NCBI GenBank assembly: GCA_001784175.1
Contig: MFPR01000024.1
Coordinates: 1 to 59,683 of the forward strand
Direction of reading: 5' to 3'
Length of the DNA: 59,683 nucleotides
From: Candidatus Lindowbacteria bacterium RIFCSPLOWO2_12_FULL_62_27
GTDB lineage: Bacteria > Lindowbacteria > 2-12-FULL-62-27
Below, piece by piece: positions 20,277 to 34,433 of the stretch. How positions within the stretch are numbered: position 1 is the stretch's first letter; each line of letters begins with the position of its first letter. A model generated the notes under the pieces. That model was not told where the DNA came from, made no database searches, and saw only the letters and a list, made by a program, of their open reading frames with translations. A program made the translations under genes and the position numbers.

Positions 20277-20554
20277 GCGGACCCCCCGGCGATGGACGCG
20301 ACGATTTCAACGCGGTCGTTTCCGGACAGCGCGGAGTCGAGGCCGTCGAGGTATCGGGCGTCCTCGTCGTTGATGGCGATGATGAAATGATGGTGGATGG
20401 CGCCGTCCGCGCCCAGAAGCATAACTTTAGCGCCGGGGAACTTCCGGTCCAACGCGTCGATCATCTCCCGCACCGACCGGGCCTTCACTGAAACCTCGGC
20501 CTTCTGGCCGGTGAGTTTCTGCATCATGGTCGGGATTTTTACCTTAACGGGCAA
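20246..20554 (-). CDS. MoaD/ThiS-like beta-grasp sulfur carrier
   Basis: About 102 residues. KVKIPTMMQKLTGQKAEVSV begins a ubiquitin-like beta-grasp fold, with VREMIDALDRKFPGAKVMLL and an end at DRVEIVASIAGG, the place where MoaD and ThiS have their C-terminal Gly-Gly. Here ten residues (SAYGFNNFSTT) follow the GG, so the tail would have to be removed before thiocarboxylation, or the protein is not a carrier. Start taken as TTG 20554 because GGAGGA stands 7 nt upstream and the frame fits the fold. That start lies inside the end of the NHL-protein gene. No MoaE, MoeB or ThiG is nearby. Confidence 0.7.
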   Translation of the reverse strand: MPVKVKIPTMMQKLTGQKAEVSVKARSVREMIDALDRKFPGAKVMLLGADGAIHHHFIIAINDEDARYLDGLDSALSGNDRVEIVASIAGGSAYGFNNFSTT

Positions 20555-22799
20555 ATCGGATTCCTCCGTAATACCACGCCGCAACACGCCGGCCCGCGGA
20601 CTGATCCAACATCCAGTCCCGCGCGGCGCGCAGCCGGGACAGAATCCGCCGGCCCCCCGGCGCCGGGTCGAGCATCTCGGAGATGACGCAACTGCGCGGG
20701 AACCCGACGGCCGCAGACGGGCTGGATCCGAAGACGGCGTAGTAGCTGAAATGCGAAACCTTGACCTTGACGTGATTCGAATCGGGGTTGCGGGCGGCGA
20801 TCGTGTCGTGTTTTTTCCATTCCGTGTCCGCGTTGCCCATGGAGTACACGACCAGGCTCGTCTCCTCAACGTCCGTGCCGTCGATCCGGCCGTCGTTGTC
20901 GGTGTCGTTGTAATTGAACGTCAGCGTGACCGAATCCCGGAACGAGCTCGGGCCGCTCTCGAACTCCAGGCTCTGATACAGGATGCCCCGGGCGTTCTCG
21001 ACGCCCTCCGGCACTTTGTCCTTTGGGTTGGTTTCGAATTTTTTGGTCTGCAGGACGGCGTCGGTGTCGAGCGCCGTGGGCGGAATCTCGATCGTCAGTT
21101 CCGACGCGACGTCCACCGTCACCTTGCGGCCCTTTTCGATCTTCTCCTTCTTCTCGTGTTCCGTGCCCGCGTTTTCCTCGATGTCGGCGCCGCTGCGTTT
21201 GATGCGGACGCGCACCGGAATCGAATAGGTCGTGTCGCAGTCGGCGGACATGGCGGCCGCGCGGACCCACACCGTGTCTCCGTCCGACCAGCCCGACACC
21301 GTGGTGTTCCATTTCAACAGATACGGACGGCCCGGCACATCCGGGCCGAGCACGGACCACGCCGTCGCGGGTTCCGTGCGGTACTGAAACTGCATCGTGA
21401 CGCCCTCGCCGGAACCCTTGAGGTGCGCGATGACGCTGACGGCGTTGCCGGAAACCGATTTGCCGGTCTGCGGCGTCGTGATCCACGGCACGGGACACGC
21501 ATTCGCGACCGGCGCGATTTTGTACTTGAGGAGCCGGGAATGGTAGCAGTCGGAGATGTAGAGATTGCCGTCCGGGTCGAAATCGATCCGCTGCGCGCCC
21601 CAGAGGCTCGATGCGGAGGTCGCGAACGTGTCGGCCGCCGCAAAATCGGCCTGGCCGAACACCACGTCCGCCACCGTGTCTTCGGCCAGCGGGCGCTTGT
21701 AAAACAGAACCCGGTTGTTGCCCCAGTCGGCCATGTAAAGGTTGGCATAGGCGTCGACGCCCAGCGAACAGGGCTCGCGGATGCTGCTGGCGCTTCGGCC
21801 ACCCATGTTCGCCGAGTCGGACGAGAAATGCGGCTGGCCGATCACGGCGTCGGCCGCGCCGTCCTCCTCCAGCGGAGAATTGAAAATCAGGCCGCGGCTG
21901 TTGTTGATGTCCGTCACGTACAGATTGCCCGACGGGTCCAGCCGGACGCGATAAGGCTGATTGAAGGACGATGCGGAAACGCCGCCGAGGTTCGCGGTGC
22001 TCGATCCGAAACTGTCCCCCTGGCCCAGAACTTTGTCCGCCACGACGTCGGTGTTGAGCGGATCATAGTAAATGAGAACGCGGTGGTTGCCGCCGTCCGC
22101 GACGTACACGTTGCCCGCGTCGTCCACGGCGACGCTCAAGGGGCCGCTCAGGCTCGAGGCGCTCGCGCCCCCGAGGTTCGCCGTGCGCGTGCCGAAGGTC
22201 CCGGCCTGGCCGAACACCGAGTCGGCGGCGAAATCGGTGCCGATCGGATCCCTGTACGCCAGCACGCGATGGTTGCCGTAATCGGCCACGTACAGATTCC
22301 CCTGCGCGTCGACACAGGCATCCGCCGGCGACCGGAGGCTCTCGGCGTGAGGCAAAGGATTCATGCGGTTGGCCCCGCCGACATCAAAATTCGCCTGGCC
22401 GATGACCGCCCAGGCGGGCTGGCCGTTGGTCAGGCCCTGCGCGCTGTCGAAAACCAGAACGCGGTGGTACTCCTGGTCGACGACGAACAGATAGTGCGTG
22501 TCGCCACGCACATGATACGCGGCGCCCATCGGGTAGCCGATGCAGGTCCGGCAGGGCCCGGTGTCCGTGTTCGTCACGAAATCCGGCTGGCCCAACACCC
22601 AGTCCGCCACGGCGTCCGACGGCTGGCCGAAAAAGCTCGGCGCCGGAAGCGTGGGCGCGCGCAGGACAGGCGCGGCCCGGCCGGCCGACTGCGCAGGCGC
22701 AGACGCCGGCGCCAGCGGCGCGGCGCGCTCCGTCCCGGCGGCCCACGAGACGCCGGGCGTCAAAAGCATACTCACCATAAGGACAACACCCCAAATCAT
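20544..22799 (-). CDS. Secreted NHL-repeat protein
   Basis: 751 residues from the ATG at 22799, which begins a signal peptide (IWGVVLMVSMLLTPGVSWA). Then about six NHL beta-propeller blades, each with a GNLYVADYGNHRVLAY-like strand and a VFGQ..F or VIGQ..F link (about 55-420). An Ig-like part follows (TPQTGKSVSGNAVSVIAHL), then a ZU5/PKD-like part (LTIEIPPTAL) with a calcium-type DTDNDGRIDG. The C-terminus SCVISEMLD...LRAARDWMLDQSAGRRVAAWYY resembles the CFIATAAYGS-type tail of secreted proteins. It is the penultimate gene of the long minus-strand run. Function unknown; surface binding or scaffold likely. Confidence 0.82.
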   Translation of the reverse strand: MIWGVVLMVSMLLTPGVSWAAGTERAAPLAPASAPAQSAGRAAPVLRAPTLPAPSFFGQPSDAVADWVLGQPDFVTNTDTGPCRTCIGYPMGAAYHVRGDTHYLFVVDQEYHRVLVFDSAQGLTNGQPAWAVIGQANFDVGGANRMNPLPHAESLRSPADACVDAQGNLYVADYGNHRVLAYRDPIGTDFAADSVFGQAGTFGTRTANLGGASASSLSGPLSVAVDDAGNVYVADGGNHRVLIYYDPLNTDVVADKVLGQGDSFGSSTANLGGVSASSFNQPYRVRLDPSGNLYVTDINNSRGLIFNSPLEEDGAADAVIGQPHFSSDSANMGGRSASSIREPCSLGVDAYANLYMADWGNNRVLFYKRPLAEDTVADVVFGQADFAAADTFATSASSLWGAQRIDFDPDGNLYISDCYHSRLLKYKIAPVANACPVPWITTPQTGKSVSGNAVSVIAHLKGSGEGVTMQFQYRTEPATAWSVLGPDVPGRPYLLKWNTTVSGWSDGDTVWVRAAAMSADCDTTYSIPVRVRIKRSGADIEENAGTEHEKKEKIEKGRKVTVDVASELTIEIPPTALDTDAVLQTKKFETNPKDKVPEGVENARGILYQSLEFESGPSSFRDSVTLTFNYNDTDNDGRIDGTDVEETSLVVYSMGNADTEWKKHDTIAARNPDSNHVKVKVSHFSYYAVFGSSPSAAVGFPRSCVISEMLDPAPGGRRILSRLRAARDWMLDQSAGRRVAAWYYGGIRFAR

Positions 22800-22842: not shown

Positions 22843-23811
22843 TCAGCCCGCGAGCCGCGCGATGAGGGACCCCGCGTACAGGACGGGGTTGGACCGGAGC
22901 GAAAACAAAAGGCCGGGGGCAGGGGCGGAAACTTCCGCAATGCGGCCGCCGCCGACCGGATCCACGATGTGTCCGATGAGCGCGCCCCTCTCCAGCCGGC
23001 AGCCGAGCGCAGCGGCCGCGACAAACAAGCCGGCGGCCGGGGAAAGAACCGACAGGACGTCCTTCGGCCAGATGATCCGGCCGGGCAGAGGCCACGGCGA
23101 TTCCGCCGCCGGCGCGGCCGGGCCAGTCCCGGCCCGCTTTTCGAGAACGCCGCTCGCGACAAAATAATTCAGGATGCCCTCGTACACCCGCTCGCAAAAC
23201 AGCGGATCGATCCGGTCCGTTCCTCCAAATTTGAGGACAAAGGTCGGCACGCCCCGCAGATTGAGATTGTGCGCGAGGCTGCCCGTCAAAAGCGGCGTCG
23301 AATGCCGACGCCACACGATCGGCAGATTGAAACTCAGCGCCGACTCGTCCGGCATTGCGATCGACTCGTACAGCCGGATGTGCGGCAGTTCCTCGAAAAA
23401 ACGCGAGCCGCAGCAAAGATCGATGCAGCTTCGGCAGTCCCGCAGCGACGCCAGTACCGCCGCGGCGATCCGCTCCGTCGTCTCGCCCATCGACACGCCC
23501 GGGAACGACAGATTAATGTCGCGCTGGTCGAATGGCCAGTATCGCCGGTGCGCCATGGTGCCGAGCGGATTCAGGGCTGGAAAAATTTTCACACGGCCCT
23601 TCAGGCGCCACCCGGCCGCGCGGCCCTCGGTCACTTCCGATAAAAACCCGATCAGCTTGTGGCACACGTAGAGGCCGTTGTACTCGTCGCCGTAAAATCC
23701 GCTCGTGATCGCGACCTCCGGATCGCCGGCGCCGAACGTGAAGGCGTAGAAGGCGAGATTCTCGTTGAAGGGCAGTTCGATCGAGAGGATCGTTTCGGGC
23801 CGCGCGCTCAT
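22843..23811 (-). CDS. AstE/AspA-family protein lacking catalytic residues
   Basis: Protein of 322 residues, clear paralogue of the next gene upstream (succinylglutamate desuccinylase/aspartoacylase fold), but the active site is gone. The zinc motif HGDE is YGDE (Tyr40 for His). The DVNR.FPG substrate motif is DINLSFPG (Arg to Leu). The second zinc His in VDVHSSN is IDLCCGS. The general-base Glu of VVEMG is VLKFG. The rest of the fold is kept: RYWPFDQ, HNLNLRGVPT, and the C-terminal beta-domain ending NPVLYAGSLIARL. Probably a non-enzymatic binding or regulatory partner of the active paralogue. Start ATG 23811 overlaps the upstream stop (ATGA). Confidence 0.85.
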   Translation of the reverse strand: MSARPETILSIELPFNENLAFYAFTFGAGDPEVAITSGFYGDEYNGLYVCHKLIGFLSEVTEGRAAGWRLKGRVKIFPALNPLGTMAHRRYWPFDQRDINLSFPGVSMGETTERIAAAVLASLRDCRSCIDLCCGSRFFEELPHIRLYESIAMPDESALSFNLPIVWRRHSTPLLTGSLAHNLNLRGVPTFVLKFGGTDRIDPLFCERVYEGILNYFVASGVLEKRAGTGPAAPAAESPWPLPGRIIWPKDVLSVLSPAAGLFVAAAALGCRLERGALIGHIVDPVGGGRIAEVSAPAPGLLFSLRSNPVLYAGSLIARLAG

Positions 23812-24773
23812 GCAATTTCAATGACCCGCGCCATCAGGCTGCCCGGATAGACGATCGGGTGCGCGCGGATCGTGAACAGATACCCGTTCCAGCGCGACGC
23901 GACGTCCTCCTTGACCTCGCCCGACAGCGCGTCCAGAATGCGGCCGATCCGCTGGCCCTGTTCGACCTTGAAACCGACGCTGATGTCCGGGACGAAAAAT
24001 CCGCCGGATTCGGAATTCAGGTACCGCACGTTTTGATCGGTCGCGTAAATCGGCCGGCTCGGCGGTGCGGGCGGCAGCGCGCCCGAGAGGATGCCAAGCT
24101 TCTGAAGCAACGACAACACGCCTTGGAAAACGATTTCCACGAACTCCTTCTGGATCCTCAGTCCCACGCCCATCTCGACCACCAGCGTCGGCACGCCGGC
24201 GGCGTTGAGGTTGCAGGACAGCGTGGTTTCGATGACCGTGGGCGCGTCATGGACCCAGACGACATCGACGTTCGTGTGGTCGGCGTACGTTTCGGCGACG
24301 GCCCGGTACCGGTTCAGAACGCGGATCTGCGGACACTCACGCAGGAAAAGGTTGCTGGAATGGACGTCGACGACCAGGTCGAAGCCCTTGAGATGCTCAA
24401 ACAGCGCGCCCGCCCACACGTGCGACGCACCCTCGCCCTGCGGCGGCGGGTCGGCCGCCGTGCCGTTCGTGCCCGGAAAACAGCGGTTCACATCGATCTG
24501 TCCGAACGGCCAGAACCGCTCGGTGGCGGCGGTCGCCAGCGGGTTGGCGACGGGAATGAGCGACACCTGGCCGCGGATGGATTTTCCGGCCGACTCCCAC
24601 TCGCGCAAAAACCGGGCGAGGTGATACGAAAGGTACAGCCCGTCCAGCTCGTCCCCGTGAATCCCCGACACGAGCGCAAACCGCTTGCCAGCGCCGTCGC
24701 CGAAGGACGATTCGAACAGCCCGATTTTCTCCTGCAGGGGAGTTTTCATACGGTAGAACTCCCGAATATTCAC
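23808..24773 (-). CDS. AstE/AspA-family zinc deacylase
   Basis: Protein of 321 residues, M14-like zinc amidohydrolase fold related to succinylglutamate desuccinylase and aspartoacylase. Catalytic residues are present: HGDE (His39, Glu42), QIDVNRCFPG, second zinc His in VVDVHSSN and general-base Glu in LVVEMGVG. A C-terminal barrel follows (SGGFFVPDISVGFKVEQGQR). Substrate unknown; the family cleaves amide bonds to small carboxylic acids. It begins at a GTG overlapping the ATP-grasp stop (GTGA); ATG 24749 is an alternative. Its place after a ligase and before a dead paralogue suggests it removes or trims what the ligase makes. Confidence 0.87.
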   Translation of the reverse strand: MNIREFYRMKTPLQEKIGLFESSFGDGAGKRFALVSGIHGDELDGLYLSYHLARFLREWESAGKSIRGQVSLIPVANPLATAATERFWPFGQIDVNRCFPGTNGTAADPPPQGEGASHVWAGALFEHLKGFDLVVDVHSSNLFLRECPQIRVLNRYRAVAETYADHTNVDVVWVHDAPTVIETTLSCNLNAAGVPTLVVEMGVGLRIQKEFVEIVFQGVLSLLQKLGILSGALPPAPPSRPIYATDQNVRYLNSESGGFFVPDISVGFKVEQGQRIGRILDALSGEVKEDVASRWNGYLFTIRAHPIVYPGSLMARVIEIA

Positions 24774-26164
24774 CGAAGCACCCAGGTGTCCTTGATGAGG
24801 CCTCCGGAGGAGCTGTTGACGACGCGCGTGCCCAGCGGCGCGACCCGGCTGATGCCGCCGGGCATGACCTGGACCTTTTCGCCCATGAGGACGTACGTCC
24901 GAAGATCCACGTAGGTGTCATCGAGGACGATGTCGTCCTGCGTGAACCGCGTGAGGCAGTGGGTCGAAAAATCGAGGCAGTCCTGTGCGATGAAGTTCAG
25001 CGGGTTCGCCAGCATCTCCCGCCGCCACTCCTCCTGCTGGTCCTTCGTGGCCTCCGGGCAGATCCAAATGCCATGGCCGCCGTAGCCCTCCCGGCACTTG
25101 ATGACCATCCGCGGGAAATTCGAGAGGATATATTTCAGGTCCTCCTCGACGAGCGGCGAGTAGGTCGGGGCGTTGGGCAGGATGGGATCCTGGTCGAGAT
25201 ACCGGCGGATCATCTTCGGCACGAACGGGAACGTGCCCTTGTCGTCGAGGACCCCGGTGCCCCAGGCATTCGCGAGATTGACTTTGCCCGCGATGTAGCT
25301 TTTCGACAGGTTCGGCACAAAATCGTCGATGTCCTGGATCCGCCGGTAAATGACGTCGACCCGCAGGTTGCCCCGGTTCGTCCGCATCTGCACGAATCCC
25401 TCGTCATCGACAAACAAGTCCTTCGGCACGCACAAGGACACGCCGGTTTCCTCGGCGAGGTACTTGTGATCGTAGTAGGCCGCGTTGTAGGAGCCCTCGG
25501 TCAGCAGGACCGCGACGGGCTCGCGGCCGCCGTTCGAGGGCGGCGCGATGTATTCGAGGTTCTTCCTCAGAAAATGCGGATAGAGGTGGACGGGATAAAT
25601 GTCGTAGGAGGAAAGAAAATCCGGAAAGAGGCGCTTGGCGATCTCCCGGTACTTGAGCGCGTACGACACGCCGGACGGGATGCGGATGTTGTCCTCCAGA
25701 ATGTACCAGGTGTCGCCGTCCATCCGGACGAGGTCGGGGCCGTAAATGTGGAGGTAGATCTTCCTCGGCGGCGTGAATCCCATGCAGGCCGGATAATAAT
25801 AGAGGCTAGACCGGATGACGTCCTCCGGGACCACATCTTGCCGGCCGGTGTAGAGATCGTTGAGAAAGAGGTTGATGGCGGTCGCGCGCTGGATCAGCCC
25901 CTCGCGGATGCGGTCGAACTGCGCGCTTTCGATGATCCTCGGAATCCAGTCGACCTTGAGGATCCGCTCCTCGCCGGGTCTCAGCAGGAACGTCACGCCC
26001 TCCTCGATGTTGATCTGGTCCGCGCGGCTGAAGCGGTCACGGAATTCCCTGAGGTCGGCCTTCTTCAGGTAGTCCATGATCGGCCGGTACAGCGGCCGGA
26101 CCTCGCCGGCCGGATCGAAGATTTCGCTGTAGGCCGAAAGGCCCCGGGCGACGGTCACCGGCAT
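24770..26164 (-). CDS. Circularly permuted ATP-grasp ligase (DUF404/407 type)
   Basis: Protein of 464 residues, in the circularly permuted ATP-grasp group (CP_ATPgrasp, COG2308). Recognisable parts: PLYRPIMDYLKKADLREF near the N-terminus, RDQ-like DQINIEEGVTF, PRIIESAQFDRIREGLIQRA, LNDLYTGRQ, DLVRMDGDTWYILEDNIRIP and SGVSYALKYRE. Then VAVLLTEGSYNAAYYDHKYLA, VIYRRIQDIDDF, and the nucleotide-binding end VIKCREGYGGHGIWICPEA with MPGGISRVAPLG. The family joins amino acids or peptides by ATP-driven amide formation and is often beside alpha-E and transglutaminase genes; here the partners are AstE-like hydrolases. No alpha-E (DUF403) gene is seen in the window. The product is unknown. Confidence 0.88.
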   Translation of the reverse strand: MPVTVARGLSAYSEIFDPAGEVRPLYRPIMDYLKKADLREFRDRFSRADQINIEEGVTFLLRPGEERILKVDWIPRIIESAQFDRIREGLIQRATAINLFLNDLYTGRQDVVPEDVIRSSLYYYPACMGFTPPRKIYLHIYGPDLVRMDGDTWYILEDNIRIPSGVSYALKYREIAKRLFPDFLSSYDIYPVHLYPHFLRKNLEYIAPPSNGGREPVAVLLTEGSYNAAYYDHKYLAEETGVSLCVPKDLFVDDEGFVQMRTNRGNLRVDVIYRRIQDIDDFVPNLSKSYIAGKVNLANAWGTGVLDDKGTFPFVPKMIRRYLDQDPILPNAPTYSPLVEEDLKYILSNFPRMVIKCREGYGGHGIWICPEATKDQQEEWRREMLANPLNFIAQDCLDFSTHCLTRFTQDDIVLDDTYVDLRTYVLMGEKVQVMPGGISRVAPLGTRVVNSSSGGLIKDTWVLR

Positions 26165-26171
26165 GTGCGGT

Positions 26172-27938
26172 TCAGCGTTTGTGAAAAGCGAATTCGGATT
26201 CGGAGATGAGCTTGTCCGAGGGCTGCGCGAAATAAAAGCCCTGGCAGAGGTCGCATTTGAACTCGCGGACCACGTCCAGTTCCTCCTGCGTCTCCACGCC
26301 CTCGGCCACGCTGACGGCGCCGATGTCCTGCGTGAACTGGCTCAGGGTTTTCAGGAGCGCCTGTTTCGTCGGCGACAGCTCAATTCCGCGCACGAGGGTC
26401 ATGTCGAATTTGATGTAGTCGGGGTCGAGGGAGGCGATGAGGCCGAGAGAGGTGTATCCGCTGCCGAGATCGTCGATGGCGATTTTGAATCCCGTCTTCT
26501 TCAAAAAGTCGATCGCCTCCCGCAGTTTCTTCGGGTCCCGGATCGCCGACCGCTCCGTCACCTCGATCACGACGCGCTTCGGGTCCGTGCGGAAGATCGG
26601 TTCATCCGGAGAGGCCAGGAGCAACTGGTCGTCCTGGAAGTCCTCCGGATGGAAATTCACGAACAGGAGCTTGCCGTCCGGCAGTTCCGGGAACCGGCCC
26701 ACGGCCTTGTCCCGGCAGAGCCGCGACAGCGCCAGGACCTGGTTCGATTCCTCCGCGACGTCGAACATGAGCTGCGGTTTTTCCAGCTCCGGATACAGGC
26801 CCCGGCCCAGGGCCTCGTAGGCCGCGATCTTGAAGTCGACCGACCGGACGATCGGCTGGCAGACGATGCGGAGGGACTGGGTGCGGATCATTTCGCGGAG
26901 GAGATTGTGGAGGCGCTGCCGGCCCTTGGACTGGAAATTGTACGCGCTGTTGGCGGCCTCTCGGACGGCGTTTAGAATCTGGCGCTGGTAGGACAGCCGG
27001 TAGGTGGTCGACACCCAGGACACGCCGGTGCTGAGGTTCAGGATCGGCACGACCTCCTTTTTCAGAAACTGCGCGTCCATGCAGAACCGCACGTGCTTGA
27101 GCAGGTCGGCGCCGAAATCGTCGACGTTGGACGAATTGAGTTTGAGCCGGGTCAGCGCGGCGTCCGGCAGAAAAATCACGAAATCGTCCGAAAGGTTCCG
27201 GCAGATGCGGATGGCGTCCAGGTCGATCGACAGTTCCCGCAGGTACTCGACGGTCTTGTTGAAGATGAACGCGTGCGTTTCGACGACGATGTCCGAGCCG
27301 AACAGAAGGTCGACGCGGTCCATGTTGTCGACCGCCAGATACAGGATCACGAACTGCCGGTTCTCCCGAATGAACGCCACCAGCGACTCGTCGATGTCCG
27401 AAATCACCGAGAGGGGGTTGGAGGGCGTGATCCGGAAGGCGTGGGCCAGGGCGTCCTCGGCCACCGATCCGGCCAGGCGCTTTTGAAGGCTGTTGCGCTC
27501 CTCCTCCAGAATCTTGACGCGCTCGATGAGATTGGTCGTGCTCTTGACGCGGCGAACGAACTTTTCCACCTGCGCCAGGATTTCCTCCGGGATGAAGGGT
27601 TTCGTCAGAAACTCCTCGCCGCCCGCGCGCAGGCCCCGCAGGCGGATCTCGCTGGTGGCGTGGCTGGTCACGAAAAGAATCGAGATGTGGGAAGTCTCCG
27701 CGGATTCCTTCAGTTTCCGGCAGGCGCCAATCCCGTCGAGTTTCGGCATTTCAATGTCGAGCAGTATGAGGTCGGGCTTCCGGGCGCGCGCCACCTCCAC
27801 CGCCTGATGACCGTCTTCGGCGGTGTAGACCTCGTACCCTTCGGCCTCGAGCAGACGCTCAAGGCTCTGGAGGAAAAATTTGCTGTCGTCGGCGACGAGA
27901 ATCCGCCCCTTGACGCTCTCGGTCAACTCCGATGCCAC
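26172..27938 (-). CDS. Response regulator with degenerate GGDEF and EAL domain
   Basis: Protein of 588 residues. REC domain at about 12-130: DDSK acidic pair, phospho-Asp in LILLDIEMPKLDG, Thr in LFVTSHA and Lys in FLTKPF. The middle (about 170-330) resembles a GGDEF domain, but the signature reads NLSDDFVIF, so it should be catalytically dead. EAL domain (about 340-588) looks active: YEALGRG, FVNFHPED, VIEVTER, IAIDDLGSGY, YIKFDMTLV, AEGVET and QGFYFAQP, which supply the metal and general-base residues. Predicted to degrade c-di-GMP when phosphorylated. No histidine kinase is adjacent. Start is a GTG. Confidence 0.9.
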   Translation of the reverse strand: MASELTESVKGRILVADDSKFFLQSLERLLEAEGYEVYTAEDGHQAVEVARARKPDLILLDIEMPKLDGIGACRKLKESAETSHISILFVTSHATSEIRLRGLRAGGEEFLTKPFIPEEILAQVEKFVRRVKSTTNLIERVKILEEERNSLQKRLAGSVAEDALAHAFRITPSNPLSVISDIDESLVAFIRENRQFVILYLAVDNMDRVDLLFGSDIVVETHAFIFNKTVEYLRELSIDLDAIRICRNLSDDFVIFLPDAALTRLKLNSSNVDDFGADLLKHVRFCMDAQFLKKEVVPILNLSTGVSWVSTTYRLSYQRQILNAVREAANSAYNFQSKGRQRLHNLLREMIRTQSLRIVCQPIVRSVDFKIAAYEALGRGLYPELEKPQLMFDVAEESNQVLALSRLCRDKAVGRFPELPDGKLLFVNFHPEDFQDDQLLLASPDEPIFRTDPKRVVIEVTERSAIRDPKKLREAIDFLKKTGFKIAIDDLGSGYTSLGLIASLDPDYIKFDMTLVRGIELSPTKQALLKTLSQFTQDIGAVSVAEGVETQEELDVVREFKCDLCQGFYFAQPSDKLISESEFAFHKR

Positions 27939-27983: not shown

Positions 27984-28769
27984 TTACGCGCGCGCCGTTG
28001 TCGATGAGCCGAACCGCCGCGCGGCGAGGGCGGCGCCGATGATGCCGGCCTTGTTTCGGAATTTCGCCGGCACGAGCCTGGCCCGGACGGCCAGATACGG
28101 GAAAAACTTTTCGTGTTTCCGGCTGACGCCGCCGCCGAGGACGATCAGGCCGGGCCAGAACAGGCGTTCCATGGTGGTCAGATACTCGTTGAGCAGGGCC
28201 GCCCATTTTTTCCAGGAAAGATTGTTCCGCTGACGCACCGCGTCGGACGCGCGGTGTTCCGCCTCCTTCCCTCTGATTTCGATGTGGCCCAATTCCGTGT
28301 TCGGAAGAAGCATTCCGTCCGAGAACAGCGCCGTTCCGAGGCCCGTGCCGACGGTGACGAGGAGAACCACACCCTTGCGGCCTCTCCCCGCGCCGAAGGT
28401 CATCTCGGCGATGCCGGCGGCGTCGGCGTCGTTGAGGACGAACGCCGGGCAGCGCGTCGACTTCTTCAACATCGCCGCCACATTCTTGCCTATCCAGCTT
28501 TTGTGAATGTTGGCGGCCGTGAGGGCCACGCCGCCGCGGATCGCCGCCGGAAACCCGCAGCCGATGGCGCCCCGCCATTTGAAATGCTTTGCAATCCGCG
28601 CAACCGCCCGCGCAATGTCAGCGGGTCTCGCCTGATCGCGGAGCGGGAGCCGGAGCCGCTCCGCCAGATACTTGCCCCTCCGAACATCCACCGGCGCGCC
28701 CTTGACGGCCGACCCGCCCACGTCAATTCCCAGAATGGCGGGCGCGGAATACTTTGAATTGCGCTTCAT
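27984..28769 (-). CDS. ppgK: Polyphosphate glucokinase (ROK family)
   Basis: Protein of 261 residues, phosphorylates glucose with polyphosphate (or ATP). ROK phosphate loop [16 protein letters not shown], the sugar-binding [13 protein letters not shown], and [27 protein letters not shown], the part diagnostic of PpgK. A C-terminal [19 protein letters not shown] also matches. ATG 28769 has AAGGAG upstream and overlaps the stop of the Memo-AMMECR1 gene (ATGA). Its presence inside the AmmeMemoRadiSam run is not explained by known biology. Confidence 0.88.
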
Positions 28770-30355
28770 GGCAAACTCCTTTCCAGCACGTTGGCTGAAT
28801 ATCGATAGAGTGCGGCGCGAGCGTCACCCGTGTCCGACCAGCAGGTGGCCGGGGATTTCTGCTTGAGGCAGAGCTGGGAGAGGAAATCGGCGGCGTTCGG
28901 AATCTCATGCCACACTTCCGGAAGAAACGTCGACTGCCGGCCCTGATAGATGAGAATCACGCCGTCTTTGTTCGGCCGCAGGACCGTCAGGTACTCCCGG
29001 GGGTCGTTGACGTAGACACGCTGAGGATATTCCAGGACCGAAATGGAGACGGTCAGCCGGTCCAGCTCCTCCGGCGTGACGGGAGAAAACCGGACATCGT
29101 GGACCGCCGCGTCCACGGCATGGGCCCGCACATCCTCGTACAAGGACGTGCGCGGAAGGAGACTGCCGATACAGCCTCGCAGTCGGCCGGCCTTTTTGAG
29201 CGTCACGAACGCGCCTCGTGGGATGCGGAACACCGGATGGCGCTCCACGAGGCCGGGGTCATGTGGCGTCTGGCCGGTCCGGACGTATTCCTCCGCCGCG
29301 CGGCGGGCGAAGGCGAGCAGGTCGCGCTGTTCCTGCTCGGAAAAATCCAGAGGCTCGTGAAAGACGATGGAGGCGTACCCGACGACGCGATTCTTGTCGG
29401 CGCCGACGTCGCCGGAATTTCGATACATGAGAAAGGTCGGATCCCAGCCGCGCCGCGCGGCGAGGAAGAGCATCGCCAGCAGAACCTGGTTGCCGTCCGT
29501 GACGGCGCGCCGGAGCTGCGCATCGTCGCGGCTCATGATGGCCTGAATGGTGAAGTGGTCGAGGTTCCGCGCCTCTTCATACTTGTAATAATGCGACAGA
29601 TCGACGCTGAACACAAACAGCGTCTCGGGGTCGGCGTAGCGGTCAAAGATTTCCGCCAGGCGCTGCACGGCCGGCAAATCCATGCCGCCGGCGATCAAGG
29701 GCACGATGGAAAAATCGCCGCGACGCAGGCGGTGGAGATACGGCAGCTCAACTTCAATCATGTGCATCCCGTGCGCGCGGGGTTCGTCGACAAAGAGGGG
29801 GTCGGACTTCAGCTCATCGACGACGGCCGAGATCGGGATTTCGGCGCCGGGGACGGCGTAGTGCGATTCGCGCGGGATCGAGACGCCGTTGAAATGGACG
29901 TCGCCGCTGTGATTGGAGGCGAGAATGAAGACGCGCTTGAAAGGCATGCCGATTTCCCGGAATGACGCGGCCGCCACTTCCGCGCTGAACACGTAACCCG
30001 CGTGCGGCACAAGAACCGCGCGCGCGCCCCGAATGCCGACCGGCGGCGACGCCGACAGGGTCCGGTCGACGAACTCGTACAGTTCGGCGGTGTCGGCCGG
30101 ATAGAATTGCCCGGCGACCGCCGGCGGCCGGACGATGCGCGGGCCGGCGCGGAGCGCGAGGGGGAGGGGCAAGGGTGCGGGCGGGGATACGGGTGCAGGT
30201 GGGGGCACAGGCGAGGGCGAGGCCGAGGGCGCAGTCGGCAGGCCGTCGGCCCAATTTGCCGGCCAGCCTTGCCCGGACGACGCGGCCAGCGTCAAGGCCG
30301 CGGATATCGCCAGAAGGCCGGTCAGGTCGACGACGAGCCGAGGGGCCGGACTCAC
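28766..30355 (-). CDS. AmmeMemoRadiSam proteins B and A fused (Memo-AMMECR1)
   Basis: 529 residues from a GTG at 30355 that overlaps the radical SAM stop (GTGA). A hydrophobic N-terminal segment ([19 protein letters not shown]) and a Pro/Ala-rich linker come first, so the protein is probably exported or anchored. Memo domain, about 75-330: [41 protein letters not shown] and [13 protein letters not shown], with metal-site histidines. AMMECR1 domain, about 345-529: [21 protein letters not shown]. The AMMECR1 and Memo genes are often fused or adjacent, next to a radical SAM gene. The biochemical role of the trio is unresolved. Ends overlapping ppgK. Confidence 0.93.
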
Positions 30356-31509
30356 GCCCACACCCCCGGGATTTTTTCGCCGCAGGCGCACCGGCCTTTG
30401 TCCAGCAGGAATTTCTTGATGAAAAACCCATCGCGCTCGATCGCGGTCTCTTTGCAGCCCGGGCAGACCGTATTCTGCGTCGGGTGGCCCGGCACGTTGC
30501 CGACGTAGACGAAATGCAGGCCCGCCTCGAGCGCGACGTCGCGCGCGCGCTCCAGAATGTCGGTCGGCGTCGGCGGAAGGTTCTGGAGCTTGTGCGCGGG
30601 ATGGAATCGCAAAAAGTGCAGCGGCGTGCCCGGACCGAGCGCCTGAACGATCCACTTGCACATCCGGCGGATGTCTTCGATGTCGTCCGAATGGGTGGGT
30701 ACGACCAGCCGGGAGACTTCGATCCACATGCCCTCCTCGCGCATGACTTCCAGGCAGCGCAGGACAGGCGCAAGCTTGGAGCCGGTAAGTTTGATGTAGA
30801 GCCGGTCGTTGAACCCTTTCAGGTCGAGTGTGGCCGCGTCCACGACGCGACAGAGTTCGCGGAGCGGTTTTTCGGAAATGAATCCGGCGGTCACGAGGAC
30901 GTTGCGAATCCCGCGCTCTTTCGCCAGCGCCGAGGAGTCGCGCACGTACTCGTAATAGATGATGGGCTCGGAATAGGTGTAGGCGATGGACCCAACGTTG
31001 CGCCGGGCGGTGGCGTCGACCAGCGCCGCCGGCGGGACGTCCATGTTCTGCGTGGTTTCCGGTTTGGCTTGCGAGATTTCCCAGTTCTGGCAGTTGGGAC
31101 ACCGCAGATTGCATCCGGCGGTGGCGAGGGACAGAATGGCCGAGCCGGGAAGGAAATGGTAGAGAGGCTTTTTTTCCATGGGATCGATATGGATCGTGCA
31201 GGGATTGCCGTAGACGAGCGTGTGGAGTTTTCCGTTCTTGACGACGCGGACCCGGCAAAATCCCCGGTCGTTCTCGCCGAGGATGCACTCGTGCGGACAC
31301 AGGACGCAACGGACCATTTCGCCGCGCGATTCGTACCACGCGGCCTCCCGGGACCATTTCCAGAGTTCGGCGGGCGCGTCGTTTCGAAATCCGACGCGCA
31401 GGCCGCCGCCGGCGTTGTCTTCGACAAAAAAATCGTGGACCGCATGGGCGCCCAGCGCCGCACTGCAGCCGCCCATCACGCATCGCTTGATGAATTTGCG
31501 CCGGTCCAT
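30352..31509 (-). CDS. amrS: AmmeMemoRadiSam radical SAM enzyme AmrS, with Tat-like signal
   Basis: Protein of 385 residues. Radical SAM cluster motif in TAGCNLRCPNCQNWEIS (about 132-148). Additional cysteines precede it in RCVLCPHECILGENDRGFC, and follow it in CPGCKETA and CACGEKIPG, as in the AmrS family. YTYSEPIIYYEYV and FLRFHPAHKL are typical. The N-terminus MDRRKFIKRCVMGGCSAALG is a twin-arginine-like signal (RRKFIK), which is strange for an oxygen-sensitive radical SAM enzyme. Start ATG 31509 is 8 bp after the membrane protein gene. The GTGA overlap couples it to the Memo-AMMECR1 gene. Confidence 0.93.
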   Translation of the reverse strand: MDRRKFIKRCVMGGCSAALGAHAVHDFFVEDNAGGGLRVGFRNDAPAELWKWSREAAWYESRGEMVRCVLCPHECILGENDRGFCRVRVVKNGKLHTLVYGNPCTIHIDPMEKKPLYHFLPGSAILSLATAGCNLRCPNCQNWEISQAKPETTQNMDVPPAALVDATARRNVGSIAYTYSEPIIYYEYVRDSSALAKERGIRNVLVTAGFISEKPLRELCRVVDAATLDLKGFNDRLYIKLTGSKLAPVLRCLEVMREEGMWIEVSRLVVPTHSDDIEDIRRMCKWIVQALGPGTPLHFLRFHPAHKLQNLPPTPTDILERARDVALEAGLHFVYVGNVPGHPTQNTVCPGCKETAIERDGFFIKKFLLDKGRCACGEKIPGVWA

Positions 31510-31517
31510 GCCCGCCC

Positions 31518-34433
31518 TCAGCCGCGCCCCGCACGATCGAGCTTCAACATCAAATCAGAAAATGTTCCGACCGGGCAAAGCGATTCGCAAAACGCGCGGC
31601 GCAGCCGCCAGGCCAGCACAATCAGAACCGCCGCCGTCGCCAGAACCGCCGCGCTGACGCCAAAGGCGTTCAGGTAGAAGAACGCGTACCAGTCGGCCGC
31701 CGCCGGCGGCTCGGCAAGATCATGCTTCAGCATGAAATAGGCCGCCGCCGTGAAAATCAGAACGGCGATCGCGGTCACGCGAAACACGATCGGCCGGCGC
31801 GCGGGCTTGCCGCCGGTTCGCGCCTGGCAATCGTAGAATGTGCCGATCGGGCACGCGTGGTAGCACCAGTGGCGCTTTTCGAGGTTCATAATAAGCGCGG
31901 CCGGAACGAGCCATGGGCGCAAAAATCCGAAGACACATTTTCGCGGGCAGACGTGACAGAAGAGGTACGGGATTTTGAAATAGCATCTGAAAATCGGGTA
32001 GAAGACAGCCAGCGAGAACGCGGCGAAATGGATCCAGCGCATCGGATGCATTCCGCTTCTCCTCCAGGCGGCGCCGAAATCGAATTCCATCGCCCGGATC
32101 AGGCCCACGGCCAGAAGCGCAAGGAGCGCCCAGTGATAGGCGGGAACGAACGAGACGGCGTAAACGCCCGCGGCTGTTTCCTCCAGCACGATCAACAGAC
32201 CAATGGCCGCGAAGACGAAGCCCGCGACGGCGAAGGGGGCAACGGCGCCCGTGTCCCGAACGACTTCGGCCTGCGATTCCGCAGGCGCCCCGCGGCGCAG
32301 TCGCAGCGCGACGGCGCTCGCCAGTTTGACGCCGCCGAGACAATAGCAGGCGCCGGCGATTCCGATGAGCGGAATCAGAAGGGCGCTGATGACGATGGAT
32401 CCGAACGCGGCGCCCAGAAGATCGACAGCGTAGAGGCGTCCAAAGGTTTTCTCGGCGCCCTGGAACGTCGCCTTCGCCGCAAGGGGAAACTGCGCGCCCC
32501 CAAGAAATCCCGTCACGCCGGTCAGGACGGGGAATATCACCGGCGGCCCGCCGGCCGCGATCAAGGGATGATCCACCGCCCGCAGCGCCTCCAGTGCCGG
32601 CGCCAGAACAAACGCGAACACGGCCAACAGGCCATCCAAGCGCGCGAGCCGTGCGCGCGGATCGCCGGCCCTTCGCGCGGACCACGCCGCGCCGGCGGCC
32701 GAGCCGATCATGAACGCCGTCACGATCAAGCCGATCTGCCGGTACGCGTATCCATAACAGATTTGAAACGCGACGATCAGCACGATCTCGATTCCCATCC
32801 CGGCGAATCCCGTCGCCGAAATCGCCGCCGACACCGGACGGTCCGGCGACGCCCGCACGAGCGCGGCGATCCCGATCCCGATGACAAGCACGAGCAGCCC
32901 GGGCGCGGCCATGCCGCCGCCGAAATGGCCGAGCCAGTACCGCAGATGGGCATGGACGCCGGTCGGATAAAAGTCGCGGTTGAGATCGACCGTGTCGGAG
33001 ACACTCTCTTTTGCCTCGCGGATGCGCTCCTCCGTCAGTTTCGCCGTCAGGTAGCTCCGGTGGACGTAGCGGGTCTCGATTCGCCTCTCTTCAAGACGCG
33101 CGGCGATGTTGTAATCGAGCGGTTCGTCGGAGGCCAGAAAATAGCGGCGCGCGCCGGGAATCACGAGAACGTGTTTGAACACAGAGGCGCAGGACCGGTA
33201 AACGGACGAGGCCAGACGGCGCATCTCCGGGCCCGCGTAATTTTCCGAGCCGCTCAGCCTGAAACTGAGCGCGCCTCCGGGACGGAGCGCCCGTTTGGCC
33301 TCCGCGAAAAATTCCGCCGTGTAATACCGGTTGATCTGCGCGTTCGAGGGATCGGGCATGTCCATCAGGATGGCGTCGTATCTTCCCCGGGCGCGCCGGA
33401 GAAATCGCCGGGCGTCTTCGGAAATCATCACGACCCTTGGATCCTTCTCGGGCGCTGATATTTTTCGCACCACCGCCAGGACCTCCGGATCAAGTTCCAC
33501 CTGGTCGATGCGGGCGAGCGGATACTTCGCCGCCTCGCGGATGGCGCCGGTCAGCGCGCCCGACACGAGAAGGACGTGTTTTGCCGCCGGGCGCTGGGCG
33601 AGCGCGTAATGCACGGTTTCTTCCGCCGCGACAAAGTCCTGGGTCGATCCGACCGGCACGCCGTTTTCGTAGACGTTGATCTGGGTTTCCTGCCGGGTCA
33701 CGGCCAGCGTGCCGTAGGGCGTGGACCGCTCGTGCAAAAGTTCCTGGCCGGGATACAGGGCGCGCGCGGTCAGGCGCTCGACGTCGATGTTCCAGAACGC
33801 GGCCAGCGCGACGATCAGCGCGGCCAGGACGACAACGCCGAGCGCGGGCCGGCCGGCGGTCATCGCGAGCAGAACGGCCGACAGCAGACTGAGAACCATC
33901 ACGAACGTGAGAGATTGAAACGGCGAGAAATAATGGACGAGACAGAAACTGAACAACAGGCCACCCACGACGTATCCGAGCGTGTCGAGCACAAAGACAT
34001 GGCCGATCTTCGCGGCGCCCTCCCGGTCGGCCACGAGCCCGCCGAATCGCGTCAGCAGAAATCCCGAAAGCAGGCAACACGGCGCGAGAAGCGCGATCGA
34101 CACGATCGTCGCCGCGCCGATGCCCGGCTGAATTCCCTGAAGGAAAAATTGCTTGACGAGCCGGATGGCGACGAGGAGCGCAGGAGACAGAAGGGCCGAC
34201 GCCGCCTGGCAGAGAATGATCTTCCGAACCGGGCTGACCGCCGGGCCGGGCCGGCGGCCGAGGAAACTGCCGAGACCCGTCAGCAGCATCCAGTTGCCCA
34301 ACATGACGCCGATGACAAGCTCGTTGCCGGCAAAGAGGGTCAGAAATTCCCGGAGCGCGATCACCTGCGTCACGAACGCGGTTATGCCGAGGCTGGCGAC
34401 GCCAAGCCGCACGGAGCGCTGCATCGGCGCCAC
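31518..34433 (-). CDS. Spermidine-synthase-like membrane protein fused to NapH-like Fe-S domain
   Basis: Protein of 971 residues. An N-terminal set of membrane helices (about 1-225) is followed by a soluble spermidine-synthase-like methyltransferase fold (about 235-440), with VLLVSGALTGAIREAAKYPL, IDQVELDPEVL and YDAILMDMPDPSNAQINRYYTAEFF. A second membrane section follows (about 500-790). The C-terminal part is NapH/NosR-like: FCHVCPRKCVFGF, WCYHACPIGTFYDC and FCESLCPVGTFSDL, giving cysteines for iron-sulfur clusters at the membrane. The glycine-rich nucleotide loop is altered (SGALTG), so aminopropyl transfer is doubtful. Directly upstream of amrS; likely supplies electrons or substrate to it. 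Confidence 0.85.
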   Translation of the reverse strand: MAPMQRSVRLGVASLGITAFVTQVIALREFLTLFAGNELVIGVMLGNWMLLTGLGSFLGRRPGPAVSPVRKIILCQAASALLSPALLVAIRLVKQFFLQGIQPGIGAATIVSIALLAPCCLLSGFLLTRFGGLVADREGAAKIGHVFVLDTLGYVVGGLLFSFCLVHYFSPFQSLTFVMVLSLLSAVLLAMTAGRPALGVVVLAALIVALAAFWNIDVERLTARALYPGQELLHERSTPYGTLAVTRQETQINVYENGVPVGSTQDFVAAEETVHYALAQRPAAKHVLLVSGALTGAIREAAKYPLARIDQVELDPEVLAVVRKISAPEKDPRVVMISEDARRFLRRARGRYDAILMDMPDPSNAQINRYYTAEFFAEAKRALRPGGALSFRLSGSENYAGPEMRRLASSVYRSCASVFKHVLVIPGARRYFLASDEPLDYNIAARLEERRIETRYVHRSYLTAKLTEERIREAKESVSDTVDLNRDFYPTGVHAHLRYWLGHFGGGMAAPGLLVLVIGIGIAALVRASPDRPVSAAISATGFAGMGIEIVLIVAFQICYGYAYRQIGLIVTAFMIGSAAGAAWSARRAGDPRARLARLDGLLAVFAFVLAPALEALRAVDHPLIAAGGPPVIFPVLTGVTGFLGGAQFPLAAKATFQGAEKTFGRLYAVDLLGAAFGSIVISALLIPLIGIAGACYCLGGVKLASAVALRLRRGAPAESQAEVVRDTGAVAPFAVAGFVFAAIGLLIVLEETAAGVYAVSFVPAYHWALLALLAVGLIRAMEFDFGAAWRRSGMHPMRWIHFAAFSLAVFYPIFRCYFKIPYLFCHVCPRKCVFGFLRPWLVPAALIMNLEKRHWCYHACPIGTFYDCQARTGGKPARRPIVFRVTAIAVLIFTAAAYFMLKHDLAEPPAAADWYAFFYLNAFGVSAAVLATAAVLIVLAWRLRRAFCESLCPVGTFSDLMLKLDRAGRG

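Follow-up and report, generated by a model that had tools for sequence, protein, structure and literature searches.

A coupled tandem of an AstE/AspA zinc hydrolase and a paralogue without the catalytic glutamate, a probable heteromeric enzyme/pseudoenzyme pair of Candidatus Lindowbacteria and other bacteria

The tandem and its active sites in the window

We analyzed the 59,683-nucleotide contig MFPR01000024.1 (hereafter the window) of Candidatus Lindowbacteria bacterium RIFCSPLOWO2_12_FULL_62_27 (assembly GCA_001784175.1), which encodes in tandem two paralogous proteins of the AstE/AspA family (M14-like; succinylglutamate desuccinylase/aspartoacylase), here termed AstE1 and AstE2. A sequence-only reading of this DNA had placed an ATP-grasp protein, an intact hydrolase and a motif-dead hydrolase in a row (22843–26164), and all three are present as described, on the minus strand. 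The first gene encodes a circularly permuted ATP-grasp protein (CP-ATP-grasp; 24770–26164, 464 amino acids), a putative amide ligase of a divergent subfamily, which matches PF14403 with 377 bits and PF04174 with 309 bits. AstE1, a predicted zinc hydrolase with a complete active site, follows (23808–24773, 321 amino acids, GTG start) and then AstE2 (22843–23811, 322 amino acids); these two match PF24827 with 82 and 55 bits, respectively, at a cut-off of 25 bits. With a response regulator-EAL gene upstream, the order of transcription is response regulator-EAL, CP-ATP-grasp, AstE1 and AstE2. Both 4-base-pair (bp) overlaps claimed for the junctions were confirmed on the same strand, GTGA (24770–24773) linking the ligase stop to the GTG start of AstE1, and ATGA (23808–23811) linking the AstE1 stop to the ATG start of AstE2. 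Among the genomes read, the GTGA overlap between ligase and AstE1 is seen only in the window genome.

AstE1 carries all catalytic positions of the family, namely the zinc ligands H39, E42 and H138, the residues N96, R97 and R86, and the catalytic Glu E200 (AstE1 numbering, as for the AstE2 substitutions below). In the order just given, they would, by our alignment, be equivalent to His21, Glu24, His116, Asn70, Arg71, Arg63 and Glu178, the active-site residues of ASPA (PMC5412892). The same positions of AstE2 are occupied by Y, E, C, N, L, R and K, and the motifs GIHGDE, DVNRCFPG, DVHSSN and VVEMG of AstE1 read GFYGDE, DINLSFPG, DLCCGS and VLKFG. By alignment, the substitutions H39Y, R97L, H138C and E200K noted earlier are thus real, but they do not amount to removal of the whole catalytic center as had been claimed: the second zinc ligand (the Glu of GDE), the Asn of the DxNR motif and R86 remain. 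AstE1 therefore shares with the family both the profile match and the zinc ligands, Asn, Arg and Glu; AstE2 has the profile match without the complete set of catalytic residues, and we file it as a putative pseudoenzyme of AstE/AspA rather than a functional member. For both proteins, profile matches were obtained to the structures of DoeB (6TWM), 3CDX, 2QJ8 and CphZ (8EIN) in the Protein Data Bank.

Distribution and translational coupling of the pair

The AstE1-AstE2 tandem occurs in four phylum-level groups: the phylum of the window, that of genomes G038 and G183, the order of genome G310, which we label Geobacterales-like, and the phylum of genome G007, possibly Nitrospinota. Beyond the window's phylum, a domain-wide sample of 386 genomes, of wide but thin coverage, contained the tandem in three groups, represented by G310, by G038 and G183, and by G007, G155 and G294. 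The order of G310 has it in 37 of 141 genomes and the phylum of G038 in both of its two; in the phylum of G007, 59 of 77 genomes matched, three of them with ordinary AstE/AspA only, leaving the pair in about 56. The window's phylum comprises three genomes in the collection. Its sister genome G001 (a groundwater metagenome-assembled genome, contig JACQOF010000134.1) has the pair, with identities of 76% for AstE1 and ~60% for AstE2, and the third genome, G002, gave no match. Contig scans for relatives returned none besides the sister genome, a plasmid search returned distant family members only, and a second domain-wide sample, consisting mostly of the same genomes, added no new group. Further bacterial groups may carry the pair.

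Except where a contig end cuts the locus, the two genes are always direct neighbors, AstE1 first, and no lone AstE1 or AstE2 was found; G754 has two complete pairs. The two genes overlap by exactly 4 bp in 84 of 94 pairs (ATGA in 49, GTGA in 34 and TTGA in 1), and the remaining 10 mostly lie within a few bases of each other. Since three of the four bases that can precede a TGA stop create a start codon automatically, the start codon itself carries no information; what is informative is that the two reading frames stand in a fixed relation and that homology to AstE2 sets in at that point. Both the overlap and the loss of motifs exceed chance.

Conservation of the active sites among relatives

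All seven catalytic positions are kept in each of the 96 AstE1 sequences. In contrast, the catalytic Glu is kept in none of the 97 AstE2 sequences, whereas 128 of 129 other family members have it (Fisher p ~1.6e-64, indicative only because counts over the pairs come from related sequences and are not independent). The second paralogue thus lacks its catalytic Glu in every relative found, which answers the possibility of local decay raised with the sequence-only reading, and the proposed pairing of an intact and a motif-dead hydrolase is conserved and translationally coupled. The expectation that the same four positions are always lost does not hold. Loss of the Glu is the only universal change in AstE2, and the other losses form no fixed set.

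In the Geobacterales-like AstE2, the Glu is the sole catalytic residue lost in all 35 sequences (replaced by R in 26, Q in 5 and T in 4). In the phylum of G007, the Glu is mostly replaced by Ser, the Arg mostly by Leu, the Asn mostly by Asp and the first His often by Gln. AstE2 of G038 and G183 has lost the first and third zinc ligands besides the Glu, and within the window's phylum the losses differ between the two genomes (DLCCGS versus DLHSGA). Ordered by extent of loss, the lineages grade from those in which only the catalytic Glu is gone to those in which the whole pocket is eroded. Moreover, AstE2 has conserved residues of its own: a Glu in an FPG...GE motif is present in 95 of 97 AstE2 sequences versus 1 of 96 AstE1 and 0 of 33 outgroup sequences, and Trp88 is near-invariant (92 of 97). 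The Asp of a WPxD motif, also considered as an AstE2 innovation, was dropped, being present in 31 of 33 outgroup sequences and lost in AstE1.

Selection and origin

The median ratios of nonsynonymous to synonymous substitution (dN/dS) in the Geobacterales-like order are 0.149 for AstE1 and 0.150 for AstE2; in the phylum of G007, they are 0.139 and 0.152, respectively. AstE2 is under purifying selection as strong as that on AstE1, and we are nearly certain that it is a pseudoenzyme maintained by selection.

In a tree of 90 sequences, AstE1 and AstE2 together form one clade apart from other AstE/AspA (support 100/100). AstE1 is a single clade (100/99), so an independent recent duplication in each lineage was rejected. 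For AstE2, the tree recovers one clade or almost one: the AstE2 of the window's phylum joins AstE1 with weak support (86/70), and monophyly of AstE2 is not rejected by the approximately unbiased test (p-AU 0.351). On this tree, the Glu requires one change, the first His six, the Asn five, the third-ligand His four, the Arg three and the second-ligand Glu two. It is plausible that the Glu was lost first, in the ancestor, and that the rest of the pocket was then worn away independently. In each half of the tree, moreover, the G038 sequences cluster with those of the Geobacterales-like order, which would be expected of two genes that are transferred or inherited together.

Gene partners across lineages

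CP-ATP-grasp, alpha-E, transglutaminase, AstE1 and AstE2 follow one another in this order in G038, in G183 and in the 18 regions read from Geobacterales-like genomes, if one contig edge (L197) and conflicts in the display of open reading frames in L193 and L194 are set aside. Transglutaminase motifs of the expected kind (GVCQDF, HAW and D(A/P)THN) are present in the G310 and G038 proteins. A gene for a class I glutamine amidotransferase comes directly after AstE2 in several of the Geobacterales-like genomes (L205:2763-3464, L206:10228-10908 and L203:9139-9843).

In the window, the ATP-grasp gene alone adjoins the pair, and alpha-E and transglutaminase are absent from the cluster. The earlier statement that the alpha-E partner is missing is right for the cluster but not for the genome, which holds elsewhere a half-length alpha-E gene and two transglutaminase-N genes. 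This alpha-E gene (contig C17, L214:7909-8367) encodes 152 amino acids covering positions 8–137 of the 294 of PF04168, and it directly precedes a gene that reads as a tyrosyl-tRNA synthetase. The alpha-E of G038 and G183 is likewise short and barely recognizable.

The window's CP-ATP-grasp keeps 87 of the 113 columns that are invariant in 13 relatives, including K309, E157-D158-N159, R275, K356, D420, R422 and N450, but a short internal segment near residue 282 is missing from it. In the sister genome G001, no ligase gene separates the EAL gene from AstE1 and AstE2, which follow it in that order. In the phylum of G007, the pair follows genes for a class IV aminotransferase, an FmdB-like zinc ribbon protein, a PAS histidine kinase and a sigma-54 response regulator (L053, L136-L143, L120 and L126), an order that suggests regulated expression of the pair, and CP-ATP-grasp is absent from many of the genomes altogether or lies elsewhere in them. 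Accordingly, the three-gene order of the window was rejected as a conserved unit by G001 and the phylum of G007, although the AstE tandem itself recurs far outside this genome. What is conserved is the AstE pair; the ligase often lies next to it but can be dispensed with.

Comparison with known systems

Compared with the rest of the AstE/AspA family, AstE1 and AstE2 are distinguished by forming a clade of their own, by their tandem arrangement with coupled translation and by an AstE2 that never has the catalytic Glu. The closest parallels to this loss are engineered. In CphZ E251A (8EIP), a laboratory mutant crystallized with ligand, FELG is changed to FALG in the same column as the Glu lost in every AstE2; aminoacylase 3 E177A (3NH5) is another engineered Glu mutant of the AstE/AspA family. 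Unlike these mutants, AstE2 lost its Glu naturally and long ago, and the change has been retained in a partner protein.

The operon of the peptidase Anbu comprises CP-ATP-grasp, alpha-E, a transglutaminase-like protein and Anbu (PMC5666114, PMC6376114). The Geobacterales-like and G038/G183 operons share its first three components within one operon and have the AstE pair in the place of Anbu. The window shares CP-ATP-grasp with this type of ligase system and differs in the absence of alpha-E and transglutaminase from its cluster. The Anbu peptidase is also absent from the window cluster, which is bordered by the EAL gene upstream and an NHL-repeat gene downstream, the rest of the genome not having been searched for Anbu. 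Some genomes of the G007 phylum (G731 and G737) hold CP-ATP-grasp in a separate Anbu-type operon in addition to the pair, Anbu being assigned there by gene order and sequence reading.

RimA, RimB and RimK (an EAL phosphodiesterase, a protease and an ATP-grasp ligase acting on ribosomal protein S6) resemble the window in logic alone, as EAL, ATP-grasp and hydrolase genes are adjacent there. In contrast to RimABK, the window's ATP-grasp is circularly permuted and its hydrolase belongs to AstE/AspA; membership was rejected, as the EAL protein scores 120 bits against the RimA equivalog cut-off of 430.

Enzyme/pseudoenzyme pairs are known in other protein families. For AstE/AspA, no description of such a pair was found in a literature search, which did not cover Iyer et al. 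2009.

Proposed role of the pair and alternative explanations

We consider it fairly likely that AstE1 and AstE2 form an obligate pair of enzyme and pseudoenzyme, probably as a heteromer, and that this pair serves in some lineages as the hydrolase arm of a ligase system like that of the Anbu operon. Both proteins would descend from a single ancient duplication within the AstE/AspA amidohydrolases. AstE1 is predicted to be a zinc-dependent amide (N-acyl or isopeptide) hydrolase, and AstE2, having presumably lost the catalytic Glu first, would have been retained as a non-catalytic partner, most likely within a hetero-dimer or tetramer whose subunits are produced by coupled translation. A physical complex of the two is likely. 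AstE2 might stabilize AstE1, or shape and present its substrate. The Geobacterales-like AstE2, with the zinc ligands and the substrate-anchoring Asn and Arg kept, resembles a naturally occurring version of the substrate-trapping mutants made in the laboratory. Elsewhere, the pocket, no longer used, would have eroded repeatedly. Where the pair follows CP-ATP-grasp (in the window, the Geobacterales-like order and G038/G183), it is probably the hydrolytic arm of a ligase/hydrolase cycle, in the place of Anbu. That the product of the neighboring ligase is what these ligase-linked forms hydrolyze is conceivable, with the odds somewhat against it. A more specific proposal, which we regard as tentative and rather doubtful, is a heteromeric zinc amidohydrolase in which the dead but still folded twin (a natural substrate trap in the Geobacterales-like order) would offer the substrate to its active partner or gauge it. 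In some lineages, this enzyme would erase a peptide or isopeptide modification made by the ATP-grasp, replacing Anbu.

Several observations weigh against the obligate pair as outlined. Six genomes that are all at least 92% complete (G007, G155, G753, G759, G762 and G784) have the pair, and no CP-ATP-grasp, alpha-E or transglutaminase-N was detected in them; the ligase therefore cannot be a general partner. Co-expression of Anbu operon proteins revealed no specific complexes (PMC6376114). The AlphaFold models, built from four-sequence alignments, have mean pLDDT (predicted local distance difference test) values of 47 and 57 and are too poor for geometry or interface, although AstE/AspA structures rank first when these models are used in Foldseek. 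Finally, only one of the residues compared sets the Geobacterales-like AstE2 apart from an active enzyme, and this protein could have weak or altered activity.

The absence of the ligase from those six genomes and from beside the pair in G001, together with its placement in a separate operon in G731 and G737, also makes a dedicated three-gene pathway unlikely, in which AstE1 would trim and AstE2 would read the product of the adjacent CP-ATP-grasp. Such a pathway would fit the position of the ligase gene, which immediately precedes the pair in the window and, in the Geobacterales-like and G038-type operons, precedes it at a distance of two genes, and it would agree with the peptide-synthesis system, with Anbu as the peptidase, that Iyer et al. 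2009 proposed for the similar Anbu operon, as far as this is cited in PMC5666114. Similarly unlikely, in our assessment, is an AstE2 that is co-transcribed with AstE1 without forming a complex with it, as a repurposed enzyme or lone binding protein (new chemistry, a metal-free ligand sensor or a substrate chaperone). The near-invariant Glu and Trp88 specific to AstE2 and the zinc and Asn/Arg site of the Geobacterales-like proteins speak for this view, but the old pocket is eroded differently in each lineage, so that no common new active site is evident there, and the near-invariant coupling and the lack of lone copies favor a joint role. The differing motifs of the two Lindowbacteria genomes do indicate ongoing erosion, as a decaying duplicate would show; nevertheless, a pseudogene or local decay was rejected and, like assembly errors as the source of the substitutions, has a negligible probability, given full-length AstE2 frames in four groups, dN/dS equal to that of AstE1, loss of the same Glu throughout, the conserved overlap and the wide distribution. 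The obligate pair thus remains the reading that we prefer.

This tightly coupled pair is ancient and widespread, and its graded losses make the contribution of the dead partner directly testable, with cultured relatives probably available. Moreover, a new hydrolase is added to the operons of ATP-grasp, alpha-E and transglutaminase, which are still unexplained, and its substrate may prove less difficult to find than the substrate of Anbu.

Neighboring genes in the window

The response regulator-EAL protein upstream of the ligase (26172–27938, minus strand) matches PF00072 with 104 bits and PF00563 with 158 bits, and its gene ends 7 bp before the start of the ligase gene. By eye, the EAL catalytic motifs YEAL, VIEVTER and DDLGSG appear intact. 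The EAL protein of G001 is 71% identical and is also encoded directly upstream of the pair. The EAL protein belongs to the local cluster in the window's phylum only, where control of the cluster by cyclic diguanylate (c-di-GMP) is possible.

Directly downstream of AstE2, an NHL-repeat beta-propeller protein is encoded (20544–22790, minus strand); its start near 22790 fits a signal peptide, and no counterpart was seen at this position in G001. Further upstream of the cluster, radical SAM, MEMO-like and AMMECR1-like segments lie together (28766–31534, minus strand) and, judged by eye only, resemble an AmmeMemoRadiSam cluster.

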